Under the pieces are notes generated by a model that was not told where the DNA came from, searched no databases, and was given only the letters and a program-made list of their open reading frames with translations. From the NCBI RefSeq assembly GCF_003999255.1, contig NZ_CP034791.1, forward strand, positions 887,001 through 951,000: 64,000 nt of DNA. Direction: 5' to 3'. The stretch comes from Caldicellulosiruptor changbaiensis (lineage in GTDB: Bacteria > Bacillota > Thermoanaerobacteria > Caldicellulosiruptorales > Caldicellulosiruptoraceae). The translations under genes were made by a program, and so were the position numbers. Numbering within the stretch: position 1 is the stretch's first letter; the number at the start of each line of letters is the position of its first letter. This document shows, in pieces, positions 15,485 through 34,178 of this stretch.

Positions 15485-17155
15485 ATGTCAAAAAGATTGA
15501 AGGTTGTTGCGACGCTTATTTGTATGGTATTTATTCTTTCAAATGTACTTTTGGTTGGTACTTCTACCTCTAATTCTGTGAAAGCGGCTTCAAGTAGTCA
15601 GCAGGTAAAAGTATTGACATTTTTCTACGGCGACTCTAATGCAGACCCACATCCGGATTTATTTAGTACACCAGTAGGTAAGGAACTAACAAAGCTTACT
15701 GGTGTAAGACTTAAAATTGAGTACTTAGCAGGACAGGATGAGGCGACAAAAATAGGACTTATGCTTGCATCAGGCGATTTGCCAGATTTAATTCATGGAC
15801 ATCAAGAGCATGGAAAGTTAATTGAAGCAGGTGTTTTGGTTCCTTTGGACAACTACATTCAAAAGTACGGAAAATATTGCAAACAAATCTATAGTGCAAA
15901 AGATCTCAAGAGACTCAGACAAAAAGATGGACATATCTATTTCTTGTCTCCATACAGAAATGAAATCACACCAGATTTAAAACCAGATGGTTTCTGGCTT
16001 CCAATTGATTTGCTTGAAAAGGCAAAGTGGCCAAAAGTAAGATATTGGGAAGATTACCTACAGCTCATAAGAGATTATGTAAAGAAAAATCCAAAGATTG
16101 AGGGTAAGCCTACAATTGGATTTACCTTTATTACAGAAAGCTGGAGATTCTTTACTCTTACAAATCCGCCATCATACCTAATGGGTTATCAAAACGATGG
16201 CGATGTCATTGTTGATCCAAAAACTTACCAGGCAAAAGTATATGCAACTATGGAAGAGTCAAAGCGATATTACAGGGATTTGAACAAGTTGTGGAAAGAA
16301 GGGTTAATTGACAAAGAAGTATTTGTTCAGAACTATGACACTTATCTTTCAAAGATTGCTCAAGGTAGAGTAGTAGGATTTTATGATCAATGGTGGCAAT
16401 TTGGATATGATGCGGAAGCATCACTCAAAAATGCAAAGAAATACAACAGAATGCACATTTCATTCCCTGTTGTTTACAAAGGTGTGCAAAGAGCAAGATA
16501 TCTTATGATTCAACCAATAGGAGCTCGAGATGGAATCAGTATTACCAAGAAATGTAAAGATCCACTTACAGCATTTAAGTTCTTGGATACACTATGTTCT
16601 TTAGAAGCACAAAAGCTAATGTATTGGGGAATCAAAGGTGTTGATTATAGTGTAGATAAGAATGGTAAAATGTATTTAACAGACAAACAGAAGAAACAAA
16701 GAGAAGATCCCGTATATCGTAAAAAACAGGGCCTTGGTTACTGGTGGGTATTCCCACATGCATATTTGAAACTGCAAGATGGAAACTATAGAGAGCCAGG
16801 ATTTGACCCAGACTATGTATACAAGAATTTCTCACCAGCTGAGAAGAAAGTACTTGATGCTTATAAAGCAAAAACCTTCATGCAGCCGCCATTTACAGAC
16901 ACACCACTTGAAACACCATATGGTTTTGCATGGGAGATTAACATTCCTGCTGATAGAACAGATGTAACTATAGCAACTCAAAAGATGAGCGAGGTACAGA
17001 GAAAGTATCTTCCACAACTTGTAATGGCAAAGAGTGATAGTGATTTTGAGAGAATATGGAAAGAGTATGTTAAAGCTTTTGAGAAGACAAACTATAAGGT
17101 ATATGAGAAATTTAAGACTGAGATGATTCAGTGGAGAGTAAAGAATTGGAATTAA
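15485..17155 (+). CDS. extracellular solute-binding protein of an Lpl-type sugar ABC transporter (paralogue 1)
   Basis: A 556-residue protein with an N-terminal secretion signal (hydrophobic core ATLICMVFILSNVLLVG, probable cleavage after SVKA). It belongs to the large binding proteins of the LplA/YtcQ type for oligosaccharides. Notable motifs are LMLASGDLPDLI, GVLVPLDNYIQKYG and GISITKKCKDPLTAFKFLD. There is no cysteine at the signal-peptide end, so the usual lipobox anchor of Gram-positive binding proteins is missing. It is collinear with the paralogue at 18484. The strong GGGGAGG site supports the ATG. A hairpin follows the gene, which would lower expression downstream. Confidence 0.88.
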   Translation: MSKRLKVVATLICMVFILSNVLLVGTSTSNSVKAASSSQQVKVLTFFYGDSNADPHPDLFSTPVGKELTKLTGVRLKIEYLAGQDEATKIGLMLASGDLPDLIHGHQEHGKLIEAGVLVPLDNYIQKYGKYCKQIYSAKDLKRLRQKDGHIYFLSPYRNEITPDLKPDGFWLPIDLLEKAKWPKVRYWEDYLQLIRDYVKKNPKIEGKPTIGFTFITESWRFFTLTNPPSYLMGYQNDGDVIVDPKTYQAKVYATMEESKRYYRDLNKLWKEGLIDKEVFVQNYDTYLSKIAQGRVVGFYDQWWQFGYDAEASLKNAKKYNRMHISFPVVYKGVQRARYLMIQPIGARDGISITKKCKDPLTAFKFLDTLCSLEAQKLMYWGIKGVDYSVDKNGKMYLTDKQKKQREDPVYRKKQGLGYWWVFPHAYLKLQDGNYREPGFDPDYVYKNFSPAEKKVLDAYKAKTFMQPPFTDTPLETPYGFAWEINIPADRTDVTIATQKMSEVQRKYLPQLVMAKSDSDFERIWKEYVKAFEKTNYKVYEKFKTEMIQWRVKNWN

Positions 17156-17179
17156 AGATATAAAAGTGATATATTTAAA

Positions 17180-17212
17180 GGGAAGGCCTTTTAGGGTCTT
17201 CCCTATAATTTT
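17180..17212 (+). terminator. intercistronic terminator/attenuator after binding protein 1
   Basis: GGGAAGGCC (17180-17188) pairs with GG-T-CTTCCC (about 17195-17203, one G-U pair), followed by TATAATTTTT. It probably gives partial termination so that the binding protein is made in excess over the next genes. Confidence 0.7.
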
Positions 17213-17262: not shown

Positions 17263-18348
17263 ATGAATGAAATAAAAATTGATTTAAAGGCATTCTGGGA
17301 GGAAAATGACTACTGCAGGCAAAACTTTGACAAAAAAACGCGCATTCCAATTCATTTTTGGCTTGATGACCACTTCTTATTTGAGTTTGTTGGTCCATTT
17401 TCTACTGTCAAGTACTACACCGACAAAGCTGTTAGATTGGAGATTCATAAAAAGGCAAATGATATATTGGAAAAAGAGCTTGGAATGAGATTTTATTCAG
17501 AAGAAGAATTAGACCCGCCTGAGCCAACGAGGTTTGAAGTTGTCATGGGTTCGAAAGTGGTTATTTCTGAAGGGGGAACACCTTGGCTTGAGCCTGCAAT
17601 TGACTCTGTGGATGAGGTAAAGGACTTAATTAGAAAGCTTGAAAAGGTTGAAATAAAAAATGTGGTAACTACTGAGCTTATAGATGCTAAAAATAGCTAT
17701 GAACTCCAAACTGGCAAAAAACTAAGATGGGGCTCTATGATAAGAGGACCAGCAACAATTGCAACAAGTTTATTGGGTACAACTAACCTTTGCATTTTGC
17801 TGATGGATGAACCAGAGCTTATGGATGAGTTTTTTAAAATTTTGGGAACAAAACTTGTTGAGTACATAAGGCTTTTAAGAAGTTATTGTGATATTGAATA
17901 CAACGGAATATCAATTAATGATGACAACTGCTTTTTGTTTTCACCAAAGCTTTATGAAAGATATTGTGCGCCTATAATGGAGAGCTTATTTAAAGAATTT
18001 GCTCCAAACAAAACTGACACAAGATATCAGCACTCAGACAGCAACATGCAGCATATAATTCCTATTTTGAATGATTTGGGAGTAAATGCAGTGAACTTTG
18101 GGCCAGAAATACATCCTGCTACTATAAGAAAACTTATGCCAAATGCACGAATCTATGGCCAAATGCCACCTTTTGTTCTTAGAAATGGTACAAAAGAAGA
18201 GATAATTGAAATTGTAAAAAGAGATATGGATGTGTTAAAAGCAGATGGCAATTTTGTTGAAACTCCTGCTGGTTCTATTGCTTCTGGTACACCTTTAGAA
18301 AATATTAGAATTTATATGTGGGCTGTGCAAGAATATGGCAGATTATAA
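17263..18348 (+). CDS. URO-D-fold protein (uroporphyrinogen decarboxylase / corrinoid methyltransferase-like)
   Basis: About 361 residues from the ATG at 17263; the in-frame TTG at 17239 gives 369. AAAGGAAG lies upstream. The fold signature is clear in RWGSMIRGPATIATSLLG, LLMDEPELMDEFFKILG, ISINDDNCFLFSPKLYERYCAP and ETPAGSIASGTPLENI. The family includes heme-pathway UroD and MtaA/MtbA-type corrinoid methyltransferases. The methyltransferase zinc ligands (HxC...C) are not conserved: the equivalent segment reads QHSDSN, and the later Cys is Ala/Gly. It lies between two sugar-binding-protein genes, so a role in carbohydrate metabolism is likely and heme synthesis unlikely. The reaction is unknown. 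Confidence 0.75.
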   Translation: MNEIKIDLKAFWEENDYCRQNFDKKTRIPIHFWLDDHFLFEFVGPFSTVKYYTDKAVRLEIHKKANDILEKELGMRFYSEEELDPPEPTRFEVVMGSKVVISEGGTPWLEPAIDSVDEVKDLIRKLEKVEIKNVVTTELIDAKNSYELQTGKKLRWGSMIRGPATIATSLLGTTNLCILLMDEPELMDEFFKILGTKLVEYIRLLRSYCDIEYNGISINDDNCFLFSPKLYERYCAPIMESLFKEFAPNKTDTRYQHSDSNMQHIIPILNDLGVNAVNFGPEIHPATIRKLMPNARIYGQMPPFVLRNGTKEEIIEIVKRDMDVLKADGNFVETPAGSIASGTPLENIRIYMWAVQEYGRL

Positions 18349-18483: not shown

Positions 18484-20160
18484 GTGAGTTTTAAAAAGAA
18501 AAGTGCTTTGATAGTAGCTTTAATCTTTATTTTTGCAACAATTGCTGGCAGCTTTGTTCCTGTTGGAACAAAAAATGCAGAAGCTGCATCTAAAAAAGTT
18601 GTAACTTTCACAATGTTTAGTGCTGATGCAACAGTGCAATACCATCCTGACATTTTTAGCACAGCAATAGGTCAAGAAATTACAAAAAAGACAGGTGTTA
18701 GACTTAAGATTGAACACTTTGTTGGTATGGACCAGGCAACAAAGGTATCGCTGATGCTTGCATCGGGTGACTTGCCAGATCTTGTATATGGTAGCGGTGA
18801 GCACAAACAGTTTATTCAGAACAAAGTCTTAGTACCACTAGAAGGATATATTCAAAAATATGGAACATGGACAAAGAAGGCATATTCAGAGGCTGACTTA
18901 AAGAAACTGCGTCAGGCGGACGGTCATATTTATTTCTTGAGCTACTCAAGAGGAGAAGTATCTCCAAGCTCAATGGGTGAAGGTTTATATGTAATGATTG
19001 ATATGCTAAAGAAAAATAAGTGGCCAAGGCTTAGATATTGGGAAGATTTGGTTCCAATGTTGAGAGCTTATGTTAAGAAGTATCCAAAATACAAAGGTAT
19101 GCCTGTTATAGGGATGTCTGCAATTACAGAAGGTTCAAGATTTTACGTCATTCAAGACCCAGCGACAGGGTTAAATGGACTGATTGCAGACACTGTTCAG
19201 TTTGATCCAAAAACTTATACGGCATCTTATGACCCGGCAGGTGTGGGAATGTACAAAGCATACAAAGCATTGAATCAGCTGTGGAATGAAGGATTATTTG
19301 ATAAAGAAGCATTTGTCCAAACATATGACCAATGGCAAGCAAAGATAGCTCAGGGTAGAGTAGTAACTTCATGGGGAAGGTCATGGCATTTCACTAATGC
19401 ATTTAATACACTGAGAAAGAATGGAGAAGACGATAGAATATTGGTTCCATTTGGGATAGTTTTCAAAGGTGTTAAAAAGTCAAGGTATGTTATGTTACAG
19501 TCAATTGGCACGCGTGATGGAGTAAGTATAACTAAAAAGTGTAAAGACCCAGTTACAGCATTTAAGTTTTTAGACTCATTATTAAATCCTGATGTTCAAA
19601 AACTCATGTTCTGGGGAATCAAGGGGAGAGACTACCTTGTTGACAAGAAAGGCAAGATGTACAGAACTCAAGCTATGATAGACAAGGCAAGAGATCCTGT
19701 ATATCAGAAACAAGAAGGACTTGGTTATTGGAATATTTATCCAAGATGGCAATTAAAACTTCCAGATGGCAACTATGTAAAACCTGATCTTGATCCAGAT
19801 ATTGCATACATGCAATGGGCACCTGCACAAAAACAAGTACTTGATGCTTATAAAGCAAAGACATTTGTAGAACCACCATTTGCAGATGAACCTGAATCTC
19901 CAAAATGGGGTTATGCTTGGGAGATTAATGTTCCACCAGAAAAACAAAAAGAAATCCAGGTTCCTTTAAATATTGCTAATGATTTAGCAAGAAAGTACAT
20001 TCCACTGCTTATTATGGCACCAAAGGGCAAATATGATGAAGTATGGAATAAGTATAAAACCGAAGTAAGGCAAAAAATAAATAGCAAAGTTATAGCAGAT
20101 TTCTATACACAAGAACTAAGAAAACGTATGGAAGATTGGTACGGAATTAAGATTAAATAG
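18484..20160 (+). CDS. extracellular solute-binding protein of an Lpl-type sugar ABC transporter (paralogue 2)
   Basis: A 558-residue paralogue of the protein at 15485, collinear through its whole length (LMLASGDLPDLV, VLVPLEGYIQKYG, DGVSITKKCKDPVTAFKFLD, YAWEINVP). The N-terminal signal MSFKKKSALIVALIFIFAT continues to a likely cleavage after NAEA. Again no lipobox Cys is present. GTG start with AGAAGGAGG upstream. It is the binding protein nearest to the permease pair and probably its main partner. The presence of two binding proteins for one permease pair suggests two ligand ranges, for example differently decorated xylo-oligosaccharides (inferred from the downstream genes). Confidence 0.88.
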   Translation: MSFKKKSALIVALIFIFATIAGSFVPVGTKNAEAASKKVVTFTMFSADATVQYHPDIFSTAIGQEITKKTGVRLKIEHFVGMDQATKVSLMLASGDLPDLVYGSGEHKQFIQNKVLVPLEGYIQKYGTWTKKAYSEADLKKLRQADGHIYFLSYSRGEVSPSSMGEGLYVMIDMLKKNKWPRLRYWEDLVPMLRAYVKKYPKYKGMPVIGMSAITEGSRFYVIQDPATGLNGLIADTVQFDPKTYTASYDPAGVGMYKAYKALNQLWNEGLFDKEAFVQTYDQWQAKIAQGRVVTSWGRSWHFTNAFNTLRKNGEDDRILVPFGIVFKGVKKSRYVMLQSIGTRDGVSITKKCKDPVTAFKFLDSLLNPDVQKLMFWGIKGRDYLVDKKGKMYRTQAMIDKARDPVYQKQEGLGYWNIYPRWQLKLPDGNYVKPDLDPDIAYMQWAPAQKQVLDAYKAKTFVEPPFADEPESPKWGYAWEINVPPEKQKEIQVPLNIANDLARKYIPLLIMAPKGKYDEVWNKYKTEVRQKINSKVIADFYTQELRKRMEDWYGIKIK

Positions 20161-20283: not shown

Positions 20284-21228
20284 GTGACATTGGAATCAGC
20301 AATTTATTACTCTTCTAAAAAAACTTTTTGGCAAAGAGTAAAAGAGCAAAAAGAGTTAGTTTTTATGATATTTCCTTTTGTATTGTACGTTATTCTTTTT
20401 CACTATATTCCACTATGGTGGTGGATAATTGCTTTTAAAGAATATAGGCCTTATGAAGGTGTATGGGGATCTGAGTGGGTTGGCTTTCAACAGTTTAAAG
20501 ATTTGTTTAGTGACTCAGGATTTTGGCTTGCTATGAGAAACACAATTGTTATAAGTTTTTTAAAACTTGTGACCTCTTTTGCTGCGGCAATTTTACTTGC
20601 ATTGATGTTAAATGAAGTAAAGAATATGTTATTTAAGCGAACTATTCAGACCATTTCCTATCTTCCCCACTTTGTATCGTGGGTTGTTGCTGCAAGTATT
20701 GTTATAAGTGCGCTTGCACCAGAGTCAGGTATTGTTAACCAAATTTTGATGTCCCTAAAAATTATCAAACAACCGATTGTATGGATGGGTGAAGGGCATT
20801 ATTTTTGGTGGATATTAGCACTATCCAGTGTGTGGAAAGAAACAGGATGGAATGCTATTGTATATTTAGCTGCAATAACGAGTATTGACCCTGAACTTTA
20901 TGATGCTGCAAGTGTTGATGGTTGTGGAAGGCTTCAAAAAATAAGGTATGTAACTTTACCAGGGATTGCACCAACAATTAGTATGCTTTTAATATTAAAT
21001 GTTGGTTGGCTTTTGAACGCAGGATTTGAACAGGTGCTTTTGTTAAGAAATCCTCTTGTTCAAGACTATGCCCAAATTCTTGACACATATGTTCTTGATT
21101 ACGGTATTACCATGTACAGATATTCGTATGCAACAGCTGCTGGTATGTTCAAAAGTGTTGTAAGTATTTTCCTTGTATTATTTGCTAATAAGATTGCTCA
21201 AAAATTAAATGCTTCAACTGTTATGTAA
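20284..21228 (+). CDS. LplB-type sugar ABC transporter permease
   Basis: A 314-residue integral membrane protein with about six helices, starting FMIFPFVLYVILFHYIPLWWWIIAF. The cytoplasmic EAA loop that contacts the ATPase is seen as DPELYDAASVDGCGRLQKIRYVTLPGI. It belongs to the LplB/MalF-like family of oligosaccharide importers. GTG start 4 nt after AAGGAGG; a TTG two codons later is possible. No ATPase gene lies in the cluster, so a shared MsmK/UgpC-type ATPase encoded elsewhere is probably used. Confidence 0.92.
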   Translation: MTLESAIYYSSKKTFWQRVKEQKELVFMIFPFVLYVILFHYIPLWWWIIAFKEYRPYEGVWGSEWVGFQQFKDLFSDSGFWLAMRNTIVISFLKLVTSFAAAILLALMLNEVKNMLFKRTIQTISYLPHFVSWVVAASIVISALAPESGIVNQILMSLKIIKQPIVWMGEGHYFWWILALSSVWKETGWNAIVYLAAITSIDPELYDAASVDGCGRLQKIRYVTLPGIAPTISMLLILNVGWLLNAGFEQVLLLRNPLVQDYAQILDTYVLDYGITMYRYSYATAAGMFKSVVSIFLVLFANKIAQKLNASTVM

Positions 21229-21266
21229 AATATCTATTAGAGGATAAAATAGGGGGTATATGTTAA

Positions 21267-22166
21267 ATGCTTAGAAAAAAGACAGCCGAAGACATTATAG
21301 TTGACTTGGTAGTCCATATAAGTTTGATATTTGTTGGTATTGTAACATTGTATCCCTTTCTGAATGTTCTTGCAGTATCCTTTAATGATGCTCTTGATAC
21401 AGTAAGAGGCGGGATATATATTTGGCCAAGAAAATGGACCTTAAAAAATTATGAGATTATCATAAGCAATCCACAGATATATAATGCAACTCTTGTATCA
21501 GTGGCAAGAACAGTCTTAGGAACTGTTCTTGGAATCATATGCACAATGTTTGTTGCATATCCTCTTTCAAGAAAAGATTTTGTCTTAAGAAGACCTTTTT
21601 CTGCTATAATGGTTTTAACAATGTACTTTGGAGCAGGATTAATACCACAATATTTACTATATAGAAGTTTACATCTTTTAAATACATTCTGGGTGTATAT
21701 TATTCCTGCTCTTTTAGGAATGTTCAACGTGGTAGTTGTGAGAAGTTACATTGAATCTCTCCCTACAAGTCTTATAGAGTCAGCCAAAATTGATGGTGCA
21801 AGCGAATTTAGGATACTGTGGCAGATAATCTTCCCTCTTACACTACCAGCAGTGGCAACAATCGCACTATTTATAGGTGTTGGGCACTGGAATTCATGGT
21901 TTGACGTGTATATTTTTAACTCCCAGAGACCTGACCTCAGTACTTTGCAGTATGAGCTACAAAAGATTTTAGCATCTGTAAGTATGCAGGTTGGAAGAAA
22001 CCCTGACTACCAGATGGGCGCAATGGCAGAAACCCAGCAAGTAACGCCTACTTCAGTAAGAGCAAGTATGACAATTGTTGCGACAGTGCCAATTATAATT
22101 GTATATCCATTTTTACAAAAATATTTTGTCAAGGGGCTCACTCTTGGGAGTGTTAAAGGAGAATAG
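21267..22166 (+). CDS. LplC-type sugar ABC transporter permease
   Basis: A 299-residue membrane protein, the second half of the permease dimer, with the EAA loop SLIESAKIDGASEFRILWQIIFPLTLP. It ends with FLQKYFVKGLTLGSVKGE, a typical MalG/LplC terminus. Start ATG at 21267 with AGGGGGTA upstream. A 38-nt gap separates it from lplB. A terminator follows. Confidence 0.92.
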   Translation: MLRKKTAEDIIVDLVVHISLIFVGIVTLYPFLNVLAVSFNDALDTVRGGIYIWPRKWTLKNYEIIISNPQIYNATLVSVARTVLGTVLGIICTMFVAYPLSRKDFVLRRPFSAIMVLTMYFGAGLIPQYLLYRSLHLLNTFWVYIIPALLGMFNVVVVRSYIESLPTSLIESAKIDGASEFRILWQIIFPLTLPAVATIALFIGVGHWNSWFDVYIFNSQRPDLSTLQYELQKILASVSMQVGRNPDYQMGAMAETQQVTPTSVRASMTIVATVPIIIVYPFLQKYFVKGLTLGSVKGE

Positions 22167-22310: not shown

Positions 22311-24152
22311 ATGAACTTGGTGACAAAGGTGATTTGTAAATTCTCAGCTAAATTAAAAGAAAGATTGTTGACAGGACTTGACAATCTCTCAGTTAGAAAG
22401 AAATTACTGTTAGTTTATATACTGTGCGTGTTAATTCCAACAATTGTTACTCATTTTATTTTTACATTGTTTATTGTGAAAAATCTTCAACAACAAAAGA
22501 TTGATCAGATAAAAGGTGCCTTTAATATTTTGAATGCAAATATTAAAAAAGTAATTGAAGAAGCTATTCTTTATTCCAATACATTGTATACAGATGAGTT
22601 GTTAAATGATATGCTTGATATAGAATACAAAGGATTGGAAGATTTTTATTCCAGTTATGAGGGGTATTTGAGAAATAAGATTTATCAAGGTAGGAATGTT
22701 TATTCCAATATAGCACGTGTTACCATTTATACTAACAATCCAACTATTGTAGATAGCGATGGTTACAGAAAATTAAATGAGGGAGAAGCAAAAGAATGGT
22801 TCAGTTTAGTTATGGATAATCAGCAGGGGATCATAGTGATTCCTACTGTGGATGAAGGTGTGAATGGAGAAGAGGGATATGTGTCGCTGTTTAGAAATTT
22901 AAACCAGTTTGAAAGGAGAAGCACATCAAGAGGAAATAACAGTAAGTATCTAAAAATAGCTAAAATCGACATGTACTTAGCAAGCTTTTTCAATTCTATA
23001 AATTTTGAAATATTTGGTGGCGAGATTTACCTTCTTGACAAGTCAAATAGGATTATTGCTGCACGTAGTAACAACAGTGTTATATTTGCAAAGCCTTTTA
23101 TAAAATTTGACAAGAGAAAGTTTGTTTCTAAGGATTCCTATATATTTGAAGAAAGATTGGATTACAATTTACTATCTTGCTGGAAATTAGTAGGTGTATT
23201 TTCAAAATCATACATGCTTGGAAAAATCTATAGGGCAATTGAGTATATACTCTTTATTTCAGTCTTGAGTCTACTTTTTGCAACTCTTTTAATTAGGATG
23301 ATTACCTCGTCATTGTCAGCAAGATTGGAACTTTTGACAAGGCACATTAAGAAAATCAAAAAGCAGAATTTTGAGATTCTCAATTGCAAAGAAGGAAATG
23401 ATGAGATTGGCAATGTAATAAAAGAGTTTAACAATATGACAATAAAGTTAAAAGAACTCATTGAAAAAGAGATGCTCTCTGAAATACAAAGAAAGACTTT
23501 AGAAATTGAAAAGAAACAGGCAGAGTTAAACGCTTTGCAGAGTCAAATAAATCCTCATTTTCTTTTTAACACATTGGATTCGATAAGAATGAGGTCAGTA
23601 CTTAAAAACGAGCTTGAGACAGCTGAGATTATTAAGTATCTCACAAGGACGCTCAGAAGGCTTATTTATTGGGGGAATGATATCACTACTGTAGAAGAAG
23701 AGATTGGCTTTGTAGAGGACTTTTTAAAGATTCAAAAGTACAGGCTGGGAGAAAAACTTGCATATCGTATTTATGTGGATGAAGTAGCGAGAAATTGTTT
23801 AATACCAAAGATGACCATCCAACCGCTGGTTGAAAATGCGTGTATTCATGGTATTGAAGAGATAGAAGGGAATGGGGAGATTATAATAGAGGTTAAAAAA
23901 GAAGAGGCTTACCTTGTCATAAAGGTTGAAGACAATGGTATTGGTATGGATGAAGAGAAACTTTCTCAGCTTTATGAGAACCTGAGCAATAATACATACG
24001 AAAAGAATATTGGTCTTAAAAATGTTTACAAAAGGCTTATGCTCTATTACAACAATGCCGTTGATTTTAAAATACATAGCAATTTTAAACAGGGTACAAG
24101 GATTGTTATCAAAATCCCGTTAGAACTTCCTGCATTTGTATATAAAATCTAA
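22311..24152 (+). CDS. YesM-type sensor histidine kinase
   Basis: A 613-residue membrane sensor. Residues about 30-55 and about 305-325 are membrane helices enclosing an extracytoplasmic sensor domain of about 250 residues. A HAMP linker follows (about 325-380, GNVIKEFNNMTIKLKEL), then the His_kinase domain with the phosphorylated His in QSQINPHFLFNTLDSIR. The HATPase domain has the N box PLVENACIHG and the G box VEDNGIGM. Such kinases pair with AraC-type regulators and sense extracellular sugars or binding-protein complexes. No strong ribosome site was seen before the ATG at 22311. It is followed 19 nt later by its partner regulator. Confidence 0.92.
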   Translation: MNLVTKVICKFSAKLKERLLTGLDNLSVRKKLLLVYILCVLIPTIVTHFIFTLFIVKNLQQQKIDQIKGAFNILNANIKKVIEEAILYSNTLYTDELLNDMLDIEYKGLEDFYSSYEGYLRNKIYQGRNVYSNIARVTIYTNNPTIVDSDGYRKLNEGEAKEWFSLVMDNQQGIIVIPTVDEGVNGEEGYVSLFRNLNQFERRSTSRGNNSKYLKIAKIDMYLASFFNSINFEIFGGEIYLLDKSNRIIAARSNNSVIFAKPFIKFDKRKFVSKDSYIFEERLDYNLLSCWKLVGVFSKSYMLGKIYRAIEYILFISVLSLLFATLLIRMITSSLSARLELLTRHIKKIKKQNFEILNCKEGNDEIGNVIKEFNNMTIKLKELIEKEMLSEIQRKTLEIEKKQAELNALQSQINPHFLFNTLDSIRMRSVLKNELETAEIIKYLTRTLRRLIYWGNDITTVEEEIGFVEDFLKIQKYRLGEKLAYRIYVDEVARNCLIPKMTIQPLVENACIHGIEEIEGNGEIIIEVKKEEAYLVIKVEDNGIGMDEEKLSQLYENLSNNTYEKNIGLKNVYKRLMLYYNNAVDFKIHSNFKQGTRIVIKIPLELPAFVYKI

Positions 24153-24171
24153 AAAATTGAGGGTGTTAAAA

Positions 24172-25704
24172 ATGCTTAAAGTTCTTTTGGTTGAAGATGA
24201 AGTCTATATGAGAAAGGGTATTATAAAGCTTGTAGACTGGAATGGACGTGGATTTGTGATATATAGGGAAGCTAGCAATGGTCAGGAAGCGCTTGAGATT
24301 TTGAGAAAAGAGCATATTGATGTGGTGATTACAGATATAAAGATGCCCGTTATGGACGGAATTGAGCTGATAAGAAGGATTTCAGAGGAGTTTGAAAACC
24401 GGCCAGCTGTCATTATTATTAGTGGGTACAATGAATTTGAGTTTGCAAAAGCCGCTATAAGATATGGTGTCAATGACTATTTATTAAAACCTATAGATGA
24501 GGCAGAGCTCATTCAGACGTTGGAAAGAATAAAAACTAGAATTCTCAATGAGAGAGAGTATCACAGGAGAAAAAACCTATTTGAATATTTGAAAAGAAAC
24601 TCAAGGTTTATGAGGATGATTGAGTTTGATGAGGTATCGACTATAGAACAATTTGAGACAAATGATACCACAAGATGGATGGGAATTGGCAAAAAAGAAG
24701 ACCTGCAATATGAAGATGACTTGACTATTTGTGAGAGTTTATTAGAGGTTGAAAAAGAGGTTAACATAAAGTTTGCAAACAAAGGAATTGACTTTAGATG
24801 TTACTGGGACAGCTTTTTTAACATAATACTTATCATTGAGACTGAGCAGAAAAATAAAAAGAATCAGGTGATAAGACAAGTATACGAACATGTGACAAAG
24901 AGATTGAACTTGCAATCAATAGTGTTTGATGAAATCAAGAGCTTCCAAAATATACATAGTTTTTACAAACAGCTTCTTAAGAAACTTAGCTTTGCGCAAT
25001 TTTATGAAAAGATTGGAGTGATTGAAGCAACTCAAATAGAAGATTTTGAGATGTACATTGAGGATAAGAAATTGGGCAGTGAACTTATTAAATTGATTGA
25101 AGAAAGAAAATGTGAAGAAATTAGATACAAACTTTCTCAATTTTTTGATGAGTGCCACAACAAAAAGATTTCTCCTGAGATAATTAAAGGTTACATACTT
25201 CTTACGTTACTCGAGGTTATAGATTATTTTGAAGTGTATCAACTTTTTGAGGCAGACAGTCTCAAGTTTATCTATAGGAGTAGTCTCCAAAAGAGCAAAT
25301 TTATTGAAAAGGTAATGGAGATATTACTTCAAATAGCAGAATACGTTACTGAAGCTACAAAGTTCAACAGTTCAAGCTTTATGAAGAAGATTGAGCTGTT
25401 CATAAAGGAAAACTACAATAAAGATATCACTATAAAAAGCATTGCTCAGCAGTTTTATATCAATCCAATTTACTTGGGCAGGATGTTTAAAAAGCACTTT
25501 AACATGCCATTTAATAAGTATTTGCACATATTAAGAATCGAACAGGCTAAAAAACTTTTACTCAAGACCGATAAAAAAATTTATGAAATTGCAAAAGAAG
25601 TGGGTTATAATGACACTGATTATTTTGCGCTAAAGTTTGAGGAGTATGTAGGTAAAAGCCCATCTAAATATAGGAGTTCAATGATAGGCGAAACTAATTA
25701 TTAA
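24172..25704 (+). CDS. YesN-type response regulator with AraC DNA-binding domain
   Basis: 510 residues from the ATG at 24172 (GAGGGTG upstream; the frame extends back to 24136 inside the kinase gene). Residues 1-120 are a receiver domain with the phosphoacceptor Asp in VVITDIKMPVMDG and the switch Lys in YLLKPID. The C-terminal 100 residues hold two AraC-type helix-turn-helix units (IKSIAQQFYINPIYLGRMFKKHF and IYEIAKEVGYNDTDYFALKFEEYVG...SPSKYR). Probable targets are the direct-repeat sites upstream of the two binding-protein genes. Confidence 0.92.
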   Translation: MLKVLLVEDEVYMRKGIIKLVDWNGRGFVIYREASNGQEALEILRKEHIDVVITDIKMPVMDGIELIRRISEEFENRPAVIIISGYNEFEFAKAAIRYGVNDYLLKPIDEAELIQTLERIKTRILNEREYHRRKNLFEYLKRNSRFMRMIEFDEVSTIEQFETNDTTRWMGIGKKEDLQYEDDLTICESLLEVEKEVNIKFANKGIDFRCYWDSFFNIILIIETEQKNKKNQVIRQVYEHVTKRLNLQSIVFDEIKSFQNIHSFYKQLLKKLSFAQFYEKIGVIEATQIEDFEMYIEDKKLGSELIKLIEERKCEEIRYKLSQFFDECHNKKISPEIIKGYILLTLLEVIDYFEVYQLFEADSLKFIYRSSLQKSKFIEKVMEILLQIAEYVTEATKFNSSSFMKKIELFIKENYNKDITIKSIAQQFYINPIYLGRMFKKHFNMPFNKYLHILRIEQAKKLLLKTDKKIYEIAKEVGYNDTDYFALKFEEYVGKSPSKYRSSMIGETNY

Positions 25705-25733: not shown

Positions 25734-25745
25734 GAAATCGGTTTC
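25734..25745 (+). promoter_or_regulatory. candidate LacI-family-type operator upstream of the glucuronidase gene
   Basis: GAAATCGGTTTC is an imperfect palindrome (GAAAyCGrTTTC) with a central CG, as in LacI-family operators. It sits about 42 nt before the ATG of the GH67 gene. No LacI-type regulator is encoded in the window, so this is a pattern only. Confidence 0.3.
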
Positions 25746-25786: not shown

Positions 25787-27877
25787 ATGGAACACCTCAA
25801 ACAAAAAGGAGTGCCACAAAATCAATATACTATGTGTTGGCTTGATTACAAAAGGTGCGAAGATGAAGAGTATTTGAAAAAGGTTATACCTTTCATTTCA
25901 AACATTTTTATATTGGATAACAATTACTATTTTCGAAATGCTGCCCTTGAGCTAAAAGAGGCTATTAAAAACATTTTTGGAGTAGAACCCAATATACAGA
26001 CTACTTCTTATCTTGACTTTCATCGTGGTACATTGATAGGAAAGTTAGGAAATGAAGTAATAGAAAAGTTTCTTGAAAAAGAGGAAAAAGAACAAATTGG
26101 CAATGAGGGATTTTTGATAAAGGTTGTTGCAACTAAAACGCAAAACATTATTCTACTTGTTGCTAAAACTGAGAGTGGAATAATTTATGGTACATTCGAA
26201 CTTATCAATAGGCTGAGGGTAAAAAGCAATTTAAGTAGTTTATATATCATAGAAAATCCAAAAGCACCTTTGAGGGTGATCAACCACTGGGATAATATGG
26301 ATGGAAGCATTGAAAGAGGTTATGCAGGAAGTTCCATTTTTTTTTCAAACAACAGGGTAAAAAGGTCTTTAAAACGTGTAAGAGACTATGCAAGGCTACT
26401 TGCGTCAATTGGTATAAATGGGGTGGTAATTAACAATGTCAATGTCAGAGGAAAGGCAATTTGGCTGATAACTCCAAAGTATTTGCCTGAGCTTTCTGAA
26501 ATTGCTGAGACTTTCAGATTATATGGTATAAAATTGTATCTTAGCATAAATTTTGCAAGTCCAATTTATATCGGAGGACTTTCAACTGCAGACCCTCTTG
26601 ACCCTGATGTATTTAAATGGTGGCAAGAGACGGTCAAGACAATTTATAGCTATATACCTGACTTTGGGGGTTTTTTAGTAAAAGCTGATTCTGAGTTCAA
26701 TCCTGGCCCATATGTATATGGCAGGAGCCATGCGGATGGAGCAAACATGCTTGCAAAAGCTCTTTTGCCATATGGTGGAGTTGTCATCTGGCGCGCGTTT
26801 GTCTACAACTGTCTTCAGGACTGGAGAGACACAAAGACTGACAGGGCAAAGGCTGCGTATGAAAACTTCAAACCTCTTGATGGAGAGTTTCTTGATAATG
26901 TTGTACTTCAGATAAAATATGGTCCAATGGACTTTCAGGTAAGGGAGCCTGTATCACCACTTTTTGGTGGTATGGAAAAGACAAATCAGATGATAGAATT
27001 ACAAATAACTCAGGAATATACAGGCCAGCAGATTCATCTTTGCTATTTAGGTACCTTGTGGAAAGAGATTTTAGAGTTTGACACCTACTGCAAAGGCAAA
27101 GGTTCATATGTCAAAAGAATAGTAGATGGAAGTCTATTTGGATGGAAGTATTGTGGATTTGCGGGTGTGTCAAACATAGGTAGTAGCATAAACTGGACAG
27201 GACACGATTTAGCCCAGGCAAATCTTTGGACGTTTGGGAAACTTGCTTGGAATCCAGATAGGTCAGTTGAAGATATTGCTAAAGAATGGATTTTGCTTAC
27301 ATTTGGGGATGATAAAAAGGTTGTAGAAAATATTCTTTGGATGCTTTTAAATTCGCATAGAATCTACGAAAAGTACACAACACCTCTTGGTTTGGGGTGG
27401 ATGGTAAATCCGGGTCACCACTATGGTCCTAATCCAGAAGGGTATGAGTATTCAAAGTGGGGGACCTACCACAGAGCAGATACAAAAGCAATTGGGGTTG
27501 ACAGGACATCAAAGGGTACAGGATATACTTTGCAGTATCATCCGCATTGGCAAAAAATCTTTGACGATATAGAAAAATGTCCAGAAGACCTTTTACTATT
27601 TTTCCACAGAGTGCCATATACTCACAGATTAAAATCAGGCAAAACGCTCATTCAGTTCATGTATGATTCGCACTTTGAAGGTGCTGAAGAGGTAGATGTT
27701 CTTATCCAAAAGTGGGAAGAGCTAAGAGGAAAGATAGATGAAGATATCTTTAATAGAGTTTCTGAGCGGCTAAAGATGCAAAAAGAACATGCAATTGAGT
27801 GGCGAGATGTGATCAATACATACTTTTACAGAAAAACAGGAATTCCTGATGAAAAAGGAAGACTCATATATCCGTAA
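25787..27877 (+). CDS. aguA: GH67 alpha-glucuronidase
   Basis: A 696-residue enzyme that releases (4-O-methyl)-D-glucuronic acid from the non-reducing end of xylo-oligosaccharides. The catalytic acid is E303 in [10 protein letters not shown]. The catalytic base pair is D382 in [12 protein letters not shown] and E410 in QITQEYTGQ, with the same spacing between the last two residues as in characterised GH67 enzymes. The N-terminal 150 residues form the GH67 N-domain. There is no signal peptide, so it acts in the cytoplasm after import by the transporter encoded upstream. GAAGGAGTG precedes the ATG. It starts a glucuronate operon with uxuB and uxuA. Confidence 0.96.
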
Positions 27878-27919
27878 AATAGAAACTTGAGTTTTTGTAG
27901 AAAGGACGAGGTGCCAAAA

Positions 27920-29545
27920 ATGCTAAAGTTAAATAGAGAAAGCCTTGCACATAAAGATTTGTGGCAAAAGATTCAAATTGAGATGCCTCAATTTGATATA
28001 GAGGATGTTATAAAAAACACATATGAAAATCCCACATGGATTCACTTTGGAGCAGGAAATATTTTTAGAGGGTATATTGCAGCACTTGAGCAGGATTTGT
28101 TAGAAAGAGGCGAGGTTCAGACAGGGGTTATTGCAGCAGAGCTATTTGACTATGAAATAATTGATAGAATCTACAAACCATATGACAATCTTTCCTTGGT
28201 TATTACAGCAGATGCAAAAGGAAATCTGCAAAAAAGAGTAATTGCAAGTATTACTGAGGCGCTAAAGTGCGACCCTGATTTTAAAGATGACTGGGCAAGG
28301 CTTTGTGAGATTTTTAAAAGTGCATCTTTGCAGATGGTGACATTTACTATTACAGAAAAAGGGTACAATATTGTTGATTTAAATGGTGAATATCTGCCAC
28401 AAGTAAAAGAAGATATAGAAAACGGACCAGAAAAACCAAAAAGTAGTATGGGGAAGGTTGCCTCACTTTTGTATGTGAGGTACAAAAATGGCAAGCACCC
28501 AGTTGCAGTTGTGAGCCTTGATAATTGCTCAAAAAACGGTGAAAGGCTTTATAATTCAATCATTCAAATAGCAAAAGAGTGGGTAAAAAACAAATTAGTA
28601 GAAGAAGGTTTTGTTGAGTATCTTAGCAATTCTTCATCAGTTAGCTTTCCATGGAGCATGATAGACAAGATTGTTCCAAGACCTTCTGAGAGCATAAAGG
28701 AGTTACTTGAAAAAGACGGGTTAGAGAAAATGGAGATAATTTGCACTTCCAAAAACACATATATAGCACCTTTTGTCAATACAGAAAAATCTCAATATCT
28801 TGTGATTGAAGACAACTTTCCAAATGGCAGACCACCTCTAGAGAAGGCAGGAGTTTATTTTGCGGACAGGCAGACAGTCGAGAACTCAGAGCGGATGAAG
28901 GTTCAGACGTGTCTCAACCCACTTCACACAGCTTTGGCCATCTTTGGATGTTTACTTGGTTACAAGACAATCTATGAAGAGGTAAAAGACGGGTGTTTAA
29001 AGAAGCTTATAGAGAAGATAGGGTATGAAGAGGGCTTGCCAGTTGTGGTTGACCCAAAGATAATTGACCCAAAAGAATATCTTAAGGAGGTAATTGAAGA
29101 AAGGTTTCCAAACCCATATATACCAGATGCACCACAAAGAATAGCGACAGACACATCACAGAAGATGCCAATTAGATTTGGTGAGACAATAAAGGCGTAC
29201 AGCGAAAGTCCTAATTTGGATGTAAAAAGTTTAAAATTCATACCGCTTGTGATAGCAGGATGGTTAAGATACTTGATGTGTGTAGATGACAGTGGCAAGC
29301 CTTTTGAGCCAAGTCCCGACCCGCTTTTAGATGAGCTGAAAAAACAAATGAATGGGATTGAGCTTGGCAAGAAGGTAGAAAACTTAGATGAAAAGCTAAA
29401 GCCAATATTGTCAAACGAGATGCTCTTTAGAGTAAATCTTTTTGAGGTAGGCCTTGCAAACAAGGTTATAGATTATTTTAAAGAGATGACAGAAGGTGTT
29501 GGTGCTGTGCGAAGGACACTTGAGAAGTATCTTGAATGTGATTAA
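27920..29545 (+). CDS. uxuB: D-mannonate oxidoreductase (fructuronate reductase)
   Basis: UxuB reduces D-fructuronate to D-mannonate with NADH. It is a 541-residue long-chain mannitol-dehydrogenase-family protein. THFGAGNIFRGYIAALEQDLL (split here) is the nucleotide-binding start, and SFPWSMIDKIVPRP and VQTCLNPLHTALAIFGC are the family signatures. The ATG at 27920 follows GACGAGGTG with good spacing, whereas the frame opening at 27887 has no ribosome site. It lies between GH67 and uxuA, matching the order of the glucuronate pathway. The isomerase that makes fructuronate (UxaC) is not in the window. Confidence 0.92.
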   Translation: MLKLNRESLAHKDLWQKIQIEMPQFDIEDVIKNTYENPTWIHFGAGNIFRGYIAALEQDLLERGEVQTGVIAAELFDYEIIDRIYKPYDNLSLVITADAKGNLQKRVIASITEALKCDPDFKDDWARLCEIFKSASLQMVTFTITEKGYNIVDLNGEYLPQVKEDIENGPEKPKSSMGKVASLLYVRYKNGKHPVAVVSLDNCSKNGERLYNSIIQIAKEWVKNKLVEEGFVEYLSNSSSVSFPWSMIDKIVPRPSESIKELLEKDGLEKMEIICTSKNTYIAPFVNTEKSQYLVIEDNFPNGRPPLEKAGVYFADRQTVENSERMKVQTCLNPLHTALAIFGCLLGYKTIYEEVKDGCLKKLIEKIGYEEGLPVVVDPKIIDPKEYLKEVIEERFPNPYIPDAPQRIATDTSQKMPIRFGETIKAYSESPNLDVKSLKFIPLVIAGWLRYLMCVDDSGKPFEPSPDPLLDELKKQMNGIELGKKVENLDEKLKPILSNEMLFRVNLFEVGLANKVIDYFKEMTEGVGAVRRTLEKYLECD

Positions 29546-29574: not shown

Positions 29575-30663
29575 ATGGGTTTTAAAATGACATTTAGATG
29601 GTTTGGTCCCAAAGATGACAACATTCCACTTGAGTATATTCGTCAGATTCCAGGAATATATGGAGTTGTGACTGCTCTTTTTGACATTCCGGTTGGTGAG
29701 GTATGGCCAGAAGAGAAGATATTTGAGCTAAAAAAGATGGTAGAGGACGCAGGGCTCAAATTTGAGGTGATAGAAAGTGTAAATGTTCACGAGGATATAA
29801 AGCTTGGACTTCCAACAAGAGATAGGTATATAGAAAACTACAAGCAGACCATAAGGAACTTAGCAAAAGCAGGTGTAAAGGTAATATGTTACAACTTTAT
29901 GCCTGTATTTGATTGGCTGAGGACAGACCTTGCTAAAAAGCTACCTGATGGTTCAGAGGTTATGGAATACAACCATGAGATGCTAAAGAATCTCACGCCA
30001 GATGAATTGGTAAAGAGTATGGAAAGTGGTTCGAGAGGATTTTCGCTTCCTGGCTGGGAGAGCTACAGGCTAAAACAGCTGCAAAATCTTTTTGATCTGT
30101 ACAAAGATGTTGACGAAGAGAAGCTTCTTCAAAATCTAATATACTTTTTAGAGAACATAATCCCTGTTTGTGAAGAGTGCGATGTTAAGATGGCAATTCA
30201 TCCTGACGACCCACCATGGTCGTTATTTGGACTGCCAAGGGTTGTAACAAATAAAGAGAACATAGAAAGATTTTTAAAAGCTGTTGACAGCCCATATAAT
30301 GGTCTTACGCTCTGTACAGGTTCACTTGGAGCAAACAAGGAAAACAATATCCCAGAGCTGATAAGGTATTTTGGTAAGATGGGCAGGATTCACTTTATGC
30401 ATGTGAGAAATATCAAATTTACAGGTGAGAGGTCTTTTTTTGAAACATCGCACCTGTCGACAGATGGCTCATTTGATATGTTTGAGATAATGAAAGCGAT
30501 ATACGATATAGGATTTGAAGGGTATTTGCGACCTGACCATGGAAGGATGATTTGGGGCGAAAAGGGAAGACCTGGCTATGGGCTTTATGACAGAGCCCTT
30601 GGCATTGCATATCTAAATGGTCTATGGGAAGCTATTGAAAAGATGTCAAAATATCAAGGCTAA
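29575..30663 (+). CDS. uxuA: mannonate dehydratase
   Basis: UxuA dehydrates D-mannonate to 2-keto-3-deoxygluconate. It has 362 residues and a TIM-barrel fold. MTFRWFGPKDDNIPLEYIRQIPG at the N-terminus (read in two parts) and MAIHPDDPPWSLFGLPRVV are family signatures. Metal ligands lie in HPDD, LCTGSLGA, HVRN and RPDHGRM. AGGAGC lies 12 nt before the ATG. It is last in the operon and followed by a terminator. The downstream KDG kinase and aldolase are not in the window. Confidence 0.95.
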   Translation: MGFKMTFRWFGPKDDNIPLEYIRQIPGIYGVVTALFDIPVGEVWPEEKIFELKKMVEDAGLKFEVIESVNVHEDIKLGLPTRDRYIENYKQTIRNLAKAGVKVICYNFMPVFDWLRTDLAKKLPDGSEVMEYNHEMLKNLTPDELVKSMESGSRGFSLPGWESYRLKQLQNLFDLYKDVDEEKLLQNLIYFLENIIPVCEECDVKMAIHPDDPPWSLFGLPRVVTNKENIERFLKAVDSPYNGLTLCTGSLGANKENNIPELIRYFGKMGRIHFMHVRNIKFTGERSFFETSHLSTDGSFDMFEIMKAIYDIGFEGYLRPDHGRMIWGEKGRPGYGLYDRALGIAYLNGLWEAIEKMSKYQG

Positions 30664-30749: not shown

Positions 30750-30786
30750 CGTCTGAACGGTGATATATATGTGTGCCGTTCAGACG
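30750..30786 (+). promoter_or_regulatory. perfect 11-bp inverted repeat in the leader of the GH2 gene
   Basis: CGTCTGAACGG (30750-30760) and CCGTTCAGACG (30776-30786) form an 11-bp perfect stem with a 15-nt loop. It lies just before the likely GH2 start at 30802. It could be an RNA hairpin controlling translation or a protein-binding site. Confidence 0.55.
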
Positions 30787-30801
30787 ATTTGTACTTTAGT
30801 T

Positions 30802-33234
30802 ATGAAGAAAGTCAATATAGACAAATCATGGGAATATGCTGAAAGTTCCCTGTACAGCGTATTGAATGTAGCCAACTTAGAGTGTGAGTGGAAACCTGTA
30901 GATTTGCCACATGATGCTGTGATTGAAAGACCAAGATGCGAAAATAATCCTTCAGGTGCCTCAGAAGGATATACTCCCGGGTGTAGTTTATATTACAAAA
31001 AAGAGTTAATGTTAGAAGAAGAGTGGAAGGGCAAAAACTTAATTCTTGAATTTGAGGGAATTATGGGAATCTCTGAGGTTTTTGTAAATGGAAGGCTTGT
31101 TGCTAAGCATTTCAATGGCTATACAAGTTTCTTTGTGGACATAACAAAACATGTTAAGTTTGATGATAAGAACACTATTGTTGTGCATGTGGAAAATACT
31201 CACAAACCAAGTTCACGGTGGTATGCAGGCTGCGGCATATATCGGCATGTATGGCTTCATGTAGGTGGTAAAGTTTACATAAAACCGTGGCATTTGCATG
31301 TTGAAACCAAGGCTATTGAAAATGAAACGGCAATATTAGAAGTTAGAGCGACTGTAGCAAATAGTACAAATGAAAGTGTTCAAGGAGTTATGAAGTTTAG
31401 TATCTTTTCTAACGATGGTGAGCTTATAATAAGCAGTAAGGAACAATTTATTCTCAGTAAAAATGAGGAAAAGACAATTAGTAAAATCATAACATTATCA
31501 CCATTTAAGTATTGGGATATAGAAAATCCTTACCTTTATAAAATCCTTGCAACAATTAAAATAAATGAAGACATTGAAGATAGCAGTTCTGCGTTTTTTG
31601 GAATACGGACAATTTCGGTAAGCCCCAAGGAAGGTTTAAAGCTCAACGGTAGGGTTATAAAGCTAAAAGGTGGATGTATCCATCACGACAACGGACCTCT
31701 TGGGAGTGCCAGCTATGACAGAGCAGAAGAGAGAAAAGTTGAGCTTTTAAAAGCTTCTGGGTTCAATGCAGTAAGACTTGCCCATAATCCATTTGCACCA
31801 GCACTTTTGGATGCCTGTGATAGATTAGGTATGCTTGTAATTGAAGAATTTTTTGATGTCTGGACAGCAGGTAAACTGAGTTTTGATTATCATCTCTTCT
31901 TTGACAAGTATTGGGAAGAAGATTTAAGAGCCACCATTATGAGAGATTATAATCATCCCTCTATTATAATGTGGTCTATTGGTAATGAAATTACCTGGGG
32001 TGTGGGAATTGATGTAGATGATGAAGAAGGATATTCGAGCATTTATACATGGTGCAAGCGCTTGTCGCAAAAAGTAAAAGAATTGGATTCAACAAGATTG
32101 GTCACTGCAGCGTTTTGTGCTATTCCAGCTGATTATGAGAGTTTGCTCACAACAATTGAAGATGGAAATTATGTAATAAGAATGTTAAAACAAGAGGCAG
32201 TAGCTGGTAACGACAAATGGGGGAAAGTAACAGAAAAATTCTTTAAGTTTTTAGACGTTGCAGGTTATAACTACAAGATCGATAGATATTCATATGATTT
32301 AGAAAAATATCCAAATCGTATCATATGCGGAACGGAGACATATCCATATACTTTATTCAAAAACTGGACTGAAACTGTAAAGAATCCAAATGTTATTGGA
32401 GATTTTGTATGGACTGCTATTGACTATTTAGGTGAAGCTGGGATAGGTAGAGTTTGCACAGACGAAAATGAAGCTAAGATGTTTGGTGGGAAATTTCCAT
32501 GGTTTTATGCAAATTGTGGAGATATTGATATTTGTGGAGATAAACGCCCTCAGTCGTATTACAGGGATGTGGTTTGGGGATTGAGAAAAGAGCCCTATAT
32601 TGTAGTCCTTCCACCACAACTTTTTGGGAAAAAATTGTACTTTAGACCCTGGGCGTGGGAACCAGTTGAGCGCAGCTATACATTTCCAGGTTATGAGGGA
32701 ATGCCTATAGCAGTTCATGTTTATGCAGATGCTGATGAGGTAGAAGTATTTGTAAATGGTCGAAGCTTAGGAAGAAAAGTATGTGGAATAAATACCCAAT
32801 TCAAAGCAGTTTATAACACAGTTTATGAACCAGGTAAAGTTGAAGCTGTGGCATATAAAAATGGCAAAGAAATTGGCAGAGATAAGATAGAAACAACTGA
32901 CAGGCCAGTTGCTTTAAAACTGCTGCCTGACAGAAATGTCATTTCTTCTTGTGGTGATTTGTGCTATATAAAAATTATTGCAGTAGATAAGAATGAAAGA
33001 GAAGTACCATATGCAGATAACACAGTAACTGTAGAAGTTGAAGGTGCAGGTAGGTTTATGGCATTAGGAACGGCTGACACATTGTCAACCGAGCTTTTTG
33101 TTAGCTCTCAAAGAAAGCTGTATAAAGGACGTGCACTTGTAGTTGTAAAAAACATTAGAGAGAAAGGAGAGATTAGAGTTAGAGTTTTAGCAGAAGGTCT
33201 AAAGAGTGCAGAGGTTGTTATAAAGTGCATATAG
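30802..33234 (+). CDS. GH2 family glycoside hydrolase (beta-galactosidase/beta-glucuronidase type)
   Basis: An 810-residue intracellular enzyme. The order is a sugar-binding jelly-roll domain (residues about 5-155), an immunoglobulin-like domain, a TIM barrel, then C-terminal domains of the DUF4982/Big type (MPIAVHVYADADEVEVFVNGRSLG). The catalytic acid/base Glu is in WSIGNEITWG and the nucleophile Glu in ICGTETYP. The substrate cannot be read: galactosidase, glucuronidase, xylosidase and arabinosidase activities occur in GH2. There is no signal peptide. The ATG at 30802 is preferred, since the earlier GTG at 30760 lies inside a perfect inverted repeat; neither has a clear Shine-Dalgarno. Confidence 0.88.
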   Translation: MKKVNIDKSWEYAESSLYSVLNVANLECEWKPVDLPHDAVIERPRCENNPSGASEGYTPGCSLYYKKELMLEEEWKGKNLILEFEGIMGISEVFVNGRLVAKHFNGYTSFFVDITKHVKFDDKNTIVVHVENTHKPSSRWYAGCGIYRHVWLHVGGKVYIKPWHLHVETKAIENETAILEVRATVANSTNESVQGVMKFSIFSNDGELIISSKEQFILSKNEEKTISKIITLSPFKYWDIENPYLYKILATIKINEDIEDSSSAFFGIRTISVSPKEGLKLNGRVIKLKGGCIHHDNGPLGSASYDRAEERKVELLKASGFNAVRLAHNPFAPALLDACDRLGMLVIEEFFDVWTAGKLSFDYHLFFDKYWEEDLRATIMRDYNHPSIIMWSIGNEITWGVGIDVDDEEGYSSIYTWCKRLSQKVKELDSTRLVTAAFCAIPADYESLLTTIEDGNYVIRMLKQEAVAGNDKWGKVTEKFFKFLDVAGYNYKIDRYSYDLEKYPNRIICGTETYPYTLFKNWTETVKNPNVIGDFVWTAIDYLGEAGIGRVCTDENEAKMFGGKFPWFYANCGDIDICGDKRPQSYYRDVVWGLRKEPYIVVLPPQLFGKKLYFRPWAWEPVERSYTFPGYEGMPIAVHVYADADEVEVFVNGRSLGRKVCGINTQFKAVYNTVYEPGKVEAVAYKNGKEIGRDKIETTDRPVALKLLPDRNVISSCGDLCYIKIIAVDKNEREVPYADNTVTVEVEGAGRFMALGTADTLSTELFVSSQRKLYKGRALVVVKNIREKGEIRVRVLAEGLKSAEVVIKCI

Positions 33235-33443: not shown

Positions 33444-33506
33444 TTTCTGCAGGCTAATCTTTGAATTTATTAAATTAAATTCAAGTTTAAAGGAGGTTGA
33501 TTGAAT

Positions 33507-34178
33507 TTGCATATTCCAGACGGTTATTTAAGTCCTCAGACGTGTGCAACATTTTATGCGGTATCAGCAGCTGCAGTAGGTTATGCTTTTAACAAATTTA
33601 GAAAACAGGCAGATGAAAAGACCTACATTCAGTTATCTGTTGCATCAGCTTTTACATTTATAGTCATGATGTTTAACTTTCCTGTTGTCGGTGGAAGCTC
33701 TGCTCACATAACCGGAATACCGCTTATAACATTTTTGTTTGGACCAATGGCTTCAACAGTTGCCTCAAGTGTTGTTTTGATTATTCAAGCACTACTTTTT
33801 AGAGACGGTGGAATTTTGGCGCTTGGGACAAATATATTTAACATGGCAGTGGCAATACCTTTAACTGCGGTTCTTATAAGCAAACTTTTGGAAAAATTAG
33901 GTCTCAAAAATGAAAAGGTTCGGATATTTATATCGTCTTATTTCTCAATAAACTTTGCAGCACTTTTGACAGCCTTTGAGCTTGGACTTCAACCGCTTTT
34001 ATTTACAAAAGCAGGGAAGCCTTTGTATTTCATGTATGATTTAAAGACCACCATTCCTGCAATGATGATACCCCACATTTTGGTTGTAGCGGTAGTTGAG
34101 GCAGTACTGACAGTTTTACTCTATTCACCCTTAAAAAATTTTGCTACAATTAAAGCTGAAGAAAAAAGAGGTGAATAA
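33507..34178 (+). CDS. cbiM: CbiM/NikM-type substrate-binding subunit of a Co/Ni ECF transporter
   Basis: A 223-residue membrane protein. The TTG at 33507 is chosen because it gives the N-terminus MHIPDGYLSP. In the NikM structure the metal is held by the N-terminal amine, His2 and a His near residue 67, so the exact start matters. The matching second His is in GGSSAHITG. AGGAGG lies 10 nt upstream; an earlier TTG at 33501 would add two residues and displace His2. About six to seven hydrophobic helices are visible. It is followed by a CbiN-like small protein, the T subunit and an ATPase. Confidence 0.92.
   Translation: MHIPDGYLSPQTCATFYAVSAAAVGYAFNKFRKQADEKTYIQLSVASAFTFIVMMFNFPVVGGSSAHITGIPLITFLFGPMASTVASSVVLIIQALLFRDGGILALGTNIFNMAVAIPLTAVLISKLLEKLGLKNEKVRIFISSYFSINFAALLTAFELGLQPLLFTKAGKPLYFMYDLKTTIPAMMIPHILVVAVVEAVLTVLLYSPLKNFATIKAEEKRGE

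Follow-up and report, generated by a model that had tools for sequence, protein, structure and literature searches.

We analysed a 64,000-nucleotide stretch of DNA from the thermophilic plant degrader Caldicellulosiruptor changbaiensis (the window), which carries, within a glucuronoxylan-utilisation cluster, a gene of the uroporphyrinogen decarboxylase (URO-D) superfamily. The best reading of our results is that one bacterial family, the Caldicellulosiruptoraceae, has drawn an uncharacterised clade of this superfamily into the breakdown of (methyl)glucuronate. 4-O-Methylglucuronate is a major side chain of xylan. The literature searched yielded no account of an anaerobic pathway for the methyl ether it carries, and a UroD-fold enzyme encoded in a glucuronate operon, from a clade free of corrinoid partners, is a concrete candidate; C. 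bescii is genetically tractable. Tentatively, and at rather less than even chances, we favour an accessory enzyme of glucuronoxylan catabolism that would act on a 4-O-methylated uronic acid, or on a derivative of it, and clear the methyl group at a metal site.

A URO-D gene linked to glucuronate utilisation

The URO-D gene is real and is maintained under purifying selection. The open reading frame starts at an ATG (17263) with AGGAAG upstream, and a longer start (TTG, 17239) is also open in frame. A chance frame can be dismissed because intact orthologs in the genus are 81-96% identical and dN/dS is about 0.07-0.15 in genome pairs inside the genus. The match to PF01208 scored 92.8 bits (curated cut-off 23.9), which places the protein in the superfamily, and it is the sole such match in the 2.9-Mb genome. 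An earlier sequence-only reading of this DNA had described the frame, its QHSD motif and its neighbourhood correctly; its placing of the gene between two sugar-binding-protein genes, upstream of GH67, is borne out by the open reading frames and Pfam (Table 1).

Table 1. Features of the glucuronoxylan cluster (positions in the window)
Feature	Position	Strand	Evidence
Sugar-binding protein SBP1 (BxgL1-like), presumed operon partner of the URO-D gene	15485..17155	+	PF13416/PF01547; synteny in 6/7 genus genomes read; operon bxgL1-X in PMC8579813
Terminator-like hairpin, SBP1/URO-D intergenic	17179..17204	+	11-pair stem and T-rich tail; consensus match only
URO-D-superfamily enzyme, 361 aa	17263..18348	+	PF01208 E 2.8e-26; candidate metal residues H257, D259, H264; conserved D221, R254
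Second sugar-binding protein SBP2 (BxgL-like)	18484..20160	+	PF13416
Two ABC permease genes (LplB-like, YtcP-like)	20284..22166	+	ORFs, synteny; names by sequence similarity
Two-component system: sensor kinase and AraC-type response regulator (BxgRS-like)	22311..25704	+	ORFs, synteny, BxgRS in PMC8579813
XynR-type operator before GH67, GAAATCGGTTTC	25734..25745	.	2 strand matches of one palindromic site vs 0.20 expected
GH67 alpha-glucuronidase	25787..27877	+	PF07488 E 1e-160
UxuB-like dehydrogenase (mannitol dehydrogenase family)	27887..29545	+	PF08125/PF01232; fructuronate reductase model 138 bits, below cut-off 603
UxuA mannonate dehydratase	29575..30663	+	PF03786 E 9e-171; TIGR00695 423 bits, over cut-off
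GH2 glycoside hydrolase	30760..33234	+	PF02836, PF18565
CbiM, after a gap behind GH2	33501-34178

The site before GH67 agrees with the published XynR-type operator, tttagaaatcgttttctaaa. The score of the UxuB-like protein on the fructuronate reductase model is about equal to that for D-arabinitol dehydrogenase; judged from its sequence, its substrate may differ from that of classical UxuB. The uronate isomerase (UxaC) is encoded outside the window, elsewhere in the genome. Elsewhere in the window lie a transposase-like gene (7128-8867), split by a stop codon into two consecutive same-frame ORFs and probably inactive, and an Rfam 'pan' motif (1434-1544) marginally above its gathering score.

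The URO-D gene, or a broken copy of it, was found in 11 of the 12 genus genomes, and the same 11 are GH67-positive; the remaining one (G008) has neither. The order SBP1, URO-D, SBP2, permeases, two-component system, GH67 is identical in six of the seven genus genomes read, the exception being G010. G012, from another genus of the same family, carries a 57%-identical ortholog downstream of UxuA, followed by genes for a KDPG aldolase and a kinase of the PfkB type; the cluster there reads GH67, GH52-like, UxuB, UxuA, URO-D, KdgA, KdgK. A shared function is well evidenced by this gene, which was relocated away from the binding protein yet kept inside the glucuronate operon. In C. bescii, the operon bxgL1-X is controlled by the two-component system BxgRS and responds in its expression to xylan, cellulose, xylose and glucose, and the function of X is left blank in the main text of that study (PMC8579813). 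X is very probably the URO-D gene, given its place after bxgL1 in the BxgRS-regulated glucuronoxylan cluster. Independently, a 2025 paper reports that some members of the order have lost the glucuronide operon. Conserved linkage, co-absence with GH67, relocation within the G012 cluster and the published regulon support the view that the gene belongs to the glucuronoxylan/glucuronate system.

The enzyme might instead act on some other oligosaccharide-derived substrate imported via SBP1, with the glucuronate genes as mere neighbours. URO-D is the presumed operon partner of SBP1; G010, where SBP1 is missing from the region, has a broken URO-D gene while SBP2 and GH67 persist; and the response published for C. 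bescii (xylan, cellulose, xylose, glucose) is broader than that of GH67. We nevertheless consider this account improbable, for the G012 gene is placed between UxuA and KdgA/KdgK and not next to the binding protein, and in G008 it is absent along with GH67.

The association is confined to one family. In G007 the URO-D copy has a nonsense codon at Gly162, and in G010 only a fragment without the N-terminus is left, flanked by transposase-like genes; both stand beside an intact GH67/UxuA cluster, and the gene is therefore dispensable. In a draw of 398 genomes from the phylum, none of the 17 GH67-positive genomes outside the family had a URO-D gene near GH67, and 12 of them had none anywhere. Conversely, GH67 was absent from all nine genomes in which members of the wider URO-D clade occur outside the genus. 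Co-occurrence with GH67 across genomes, proposed in the sequence-only reading as a test, therefore holds inside the Caldicellulosiruptoraceae but breaks down beyond them. Clostridial-class GH67 clusters of one genus (g6; L061, L062, L063, L066 and L068) have two consecutive GFO/IDH/MocA-type dehydrogenase genes right after GH67, a possible alternative means of handling methylglucuronate.

Sugar-acid or inositol-type contexts recur around the closest relatives of the protein. The gene for one (L022, 61%) follows those for a tripartite tricarboxylate transporter, a GFO/IDH/MocA protein, a flavoprotein and a zinc alcohol dehydrogenase, and another (L023, 57%) has as its neighbours a second URO-D gene, an IolB-like protein and a 5-keto-L-gluconate epimerase that scores above the IolO cut-off. 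Contexts are mixed among the clade members that are more distant. Relatives were not found on viral contigs, and three distant ones lie on plasmids. Two unrelated URO-D paralogs also stand side by side in several genus members (L053:6338-8312), close to a maltodextrin-type ABC cluster and some 12 kb away from the gene for the corrinoid protein; the window's own genome has neither paralog.

Family, fold and candidate metal site

The best NCBIfam models were MtaA-like and scored far below their cut-offs (38.1 vs 400, 50.1 vs 235.4 and 62.3 vs 244), as did the HemE model TIGR01464 (18.7 bits vs 302.95). Searched with phmmer, the single URO-D sequence matched no solved structure; the clade profile alone did so, best to MtaA (4ay7, E 7e-10), then to tobacco UroD (1j93, E 3e-4) and CdmB (9rui, E 0.002). 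A structure model of medium quality (mean pLDDT 62.5), built on three sequences, has a predicted UroD-type TIM-barrel fold that is about equally close to UroD (Z 14.8) and MtaA (Z 13.7). CdmB, MtvB and similar proteins were not in the structural match list, which is uninformative in either direction.

In the profile alignment to 4ay7, H257 of the QHSD motif (H257-S-D259) falls on the zinc His and D259 takes the place of the first HxC Cys; no later Cys is present. HSD and TAGS thus stand where MtaA-type enzymes have HxC and C, and the His-Cys-Cys zinc site is lacking, in line with the earlier observation that these ligands are replaced. The 22 clade members form one supported group (0.99) and have D221, R254, H257, D259, M262, P281, D321 and G337 in common, with H264 in all but one. 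R254, M262, H264, P281, D321 and G337 were not seen in 17 outgroup proteins; His-x-Asp is found in other URO-D paralogs too.

Strict membership of MtaA/MtbA is ruled out by the sub-cut-off scores and the missing His-Cys-Cys site. The Pfam name and the fold would also fit a uroporphyrinogen decarboxylase (HemE) present in the cluster by chance. This identity is rejected with near certainty: the HemE model score is far too low, the protein groups apart from a HemE-like protein in the tree, and the gene is lost together with GH67. The earlier view that the protein is neither a classical UroD nor a coenzyme M methyltransferase is therefore upheld by the HemE and MtaA/MtbA scores and by the loss of the Cys ligands.

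Corrinoid genes and the O-methyl question

The window encodes no corrinoid protein, RACE or MtaB. The whole genome has one stand-alone corrinoid protein (MtaC/MtgC-like) and one corrinoid activase (RACE), as do all 12 genus genomes, G008 included, so that the claim of an absent corrinoid protein is right for the window but not for the genome. Corrinoid protein, RACE and MtaB were likewise absent from 21 clade loci (389 kb), in a search that detected both of its positive controls, the mta-like cluster of G012 and a Thiodictyon plasmid locus; local corrinoid linkage of the clade is accordingly rejected (0/21 loci). G012 has a methanol methyltransferase-like cluster (L100:20-6931, G012:C2) that encodes MtaB, a pair of corrinoid proteins and a URO-D protein of MtaA-like type with a thioredoxin-like domain fused to it. 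The sole stand-alone corrinoid protein of the window's genome lies in an apparent operon with a GH106-like (rhamnosidase-type) 996-aa protein and a class II aldolase (L098:9425-13781; G000:C1, about 442.9-447.3 kb); the arrangement recurs in G005 (L102), and no methyltransferase is adjacent. The activase is encoded at 487 kb of the genome.

According to published work, His-Cys-Cys is the site of the superfamily's S-methyltransferases, whereas in O-methyl enzymes the Cys positions are taken by carboxylates or non-ligands, and some do without any zinc; O-demethylating UroD relatives have Asp or Glu where Cys stood (PMC10418091). The change from HxC to HSD, earlier counted against O-demethylation, therefore counts mildly in favour of an oxygen substrate.

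A corrinoid-dependent O-demethylase (methyltransferase I, MtvB/OdmB/VdmB-like) for methylglucuronate, using the genome's corrinoid protein and activase in trans and feeding the methyl group to folate or methionine synthesis, has to be weighed here. Ether-demethylating methyltransferases exist in the superfamily, the protein has the replacement of Cys by carboxylate or non-ligand (HSD, TAGS) that suits an O-substrate, and every genus genome supplies one corrinoid protein and one RACE protein. Against it, the 389 kb around 21 clade members lack all three corrinoid-system genes although the controls were detected, and G008 keeps the corrinoid protein and RACE with neither URO-D nor GH67, so that these two have another role. 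A corrinoid methyltransferase acting in trans is the less likely reading, and we give it a low probability. The cobalt transporter, offered earlier as a pointer to corrinoid chemistry, does follow the cluster in the genus as CbiM, but its support is weak: the genes read over as much as 4 kb beyond the cluster in G012 (the second genus) did not include it, and Rfam detected no cobalamin riboswitch in the window.

Fate of the methyl group and comparison with known systems

By our mapping of the established pathway, C4 of glucuronate ends up as C3 of mannonate, and it is the oxygen on this C3 that UxuA expels. The 4-O-methyl group would thus be carried by the leaving group, and a dehydratase that tolerates it would give methanol and ordinary 2-keto-3-deoxygluconate. 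A separate demethylase is possible, yet the pathway does not show a need for one, and UxuA alone could free the methanol. The proposal that UxuA and UxuB force a separate demethylation step therefore falls, the more so as GH67 genomes outside the family do without the gene, and as it is broken in two genus members whose GH67/uxuAB cluster is intact. Most GH67 organisms could lack such an enzyme because UxuA expels the methylated oxygen. The mapping predicts methanol at the mannonate step, from UxuA or from the URO-D enzyme. The literature searched contained no report of a methylglucuronate enzyme of the UroD type, nor of a mannonate dehydratase that releases methanol.

The protein might instead catalyse a different sugar-acid step (isomerisation, epimerisation, decarboxylation or retro-aldol) that is unrelated to the methyl group, any methanol then coming from UxuA. 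The inferred carbon mapping of the established pathway, the outside-family GH67 genomes without URO-D, the 5-keto-L-gluconate epimerase and IolB-like genes beside clade relatives and the tolerance of broken copies would all agree with this. However, UxuA, UxuB and a UxaC cover the known steps and leave none vacant, and no mechanism is named; we hold this alternative to be somewhat unlikely.

The methyl-clearing accessory enzyme that we favour draws on the co-occurrence with GH67 in 11 genomes (G008 having neither), the relocation in G012, the bxgL1-X regulon and purifying selection. It is further favoured by Asp in place of a zinc-ligand Cys, the sugar-acid and inositol-type neighbours of relatives and the lack of corrinoid genes at clade loci. 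It is weakened by the broken copies in G007 and G010, by the 17 outside GH67 genomes without a nearby URO-D gene and the nine clade genomes without GH67, by the possibility that UxuA alone yields methanol and by the response of bxgL1-X to cellulose, xylose and glucose as well. Coexpressed with a dedicated oligosaccharide-binding protein (SBP1), the URO-D protein would most likely have as its substrate the 4-O-methylated uronic acid that GH67 releases, or else a keto or aldonate derivative of that acid. At an oxygen-preferring metal site, with His257, Asp259 and probably His264 as putative residues, it would remove the methyl group. The most economical way would be to expel methanol from the carbon at which UxuA takes off the oxygen; alternatively, the methyl could be handed over to an acceptor. 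The place of the gene beside UxuA in G012 would fit a methanol-expelling step. In its most specific form, which we think fairly improbable, the enzyme would be a 'methoxy-sugar lyase' of UroD fold that depends on a metal but not on a corrinoid and expels methanol in the 4-O-methylglucuronate pathway, from a compound such as 3-O-methyl-mannonate or 4-O-methyl-fructuronate. If true, the superfamily would gain a new reaction class, and the methyl ether of xylan a dedicated anaerobic route.

Among known systems, MtaA (methylcobamide:CoM methyltransferase) and the MtaA/CmuA family share the URO-D fold, the best profile match and the zinc His at H257 with the window protein, which differs in having Asp for Cys and no third Cys, in scoring 38-62 bits against cut-offs of 235-400 and in lacking a corrinoid partner nearby. 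HemE is alike in fold (Z 14.8) and differs in model score (18.7 vs 303 bits), in the His-x-Asp site and in the sugar-operon setting. UxuA is a functional likeness and not a homolog: as a methanol lyase, the URO-D protein would act on the same carbon, but UxuA belongs to an unrelated Pfam family and is itself already in the window. MtvB, OdmB, VdmB and CdmB have the same fold, with Cys ligands lacking or replaced by carboxylates, and CdmB is a weak profile match (E 0.002); they are encoded with a corrinoid protein, MT II and an activase, whereas the clade of the window protein has no corrinoid protein or activase nearby.
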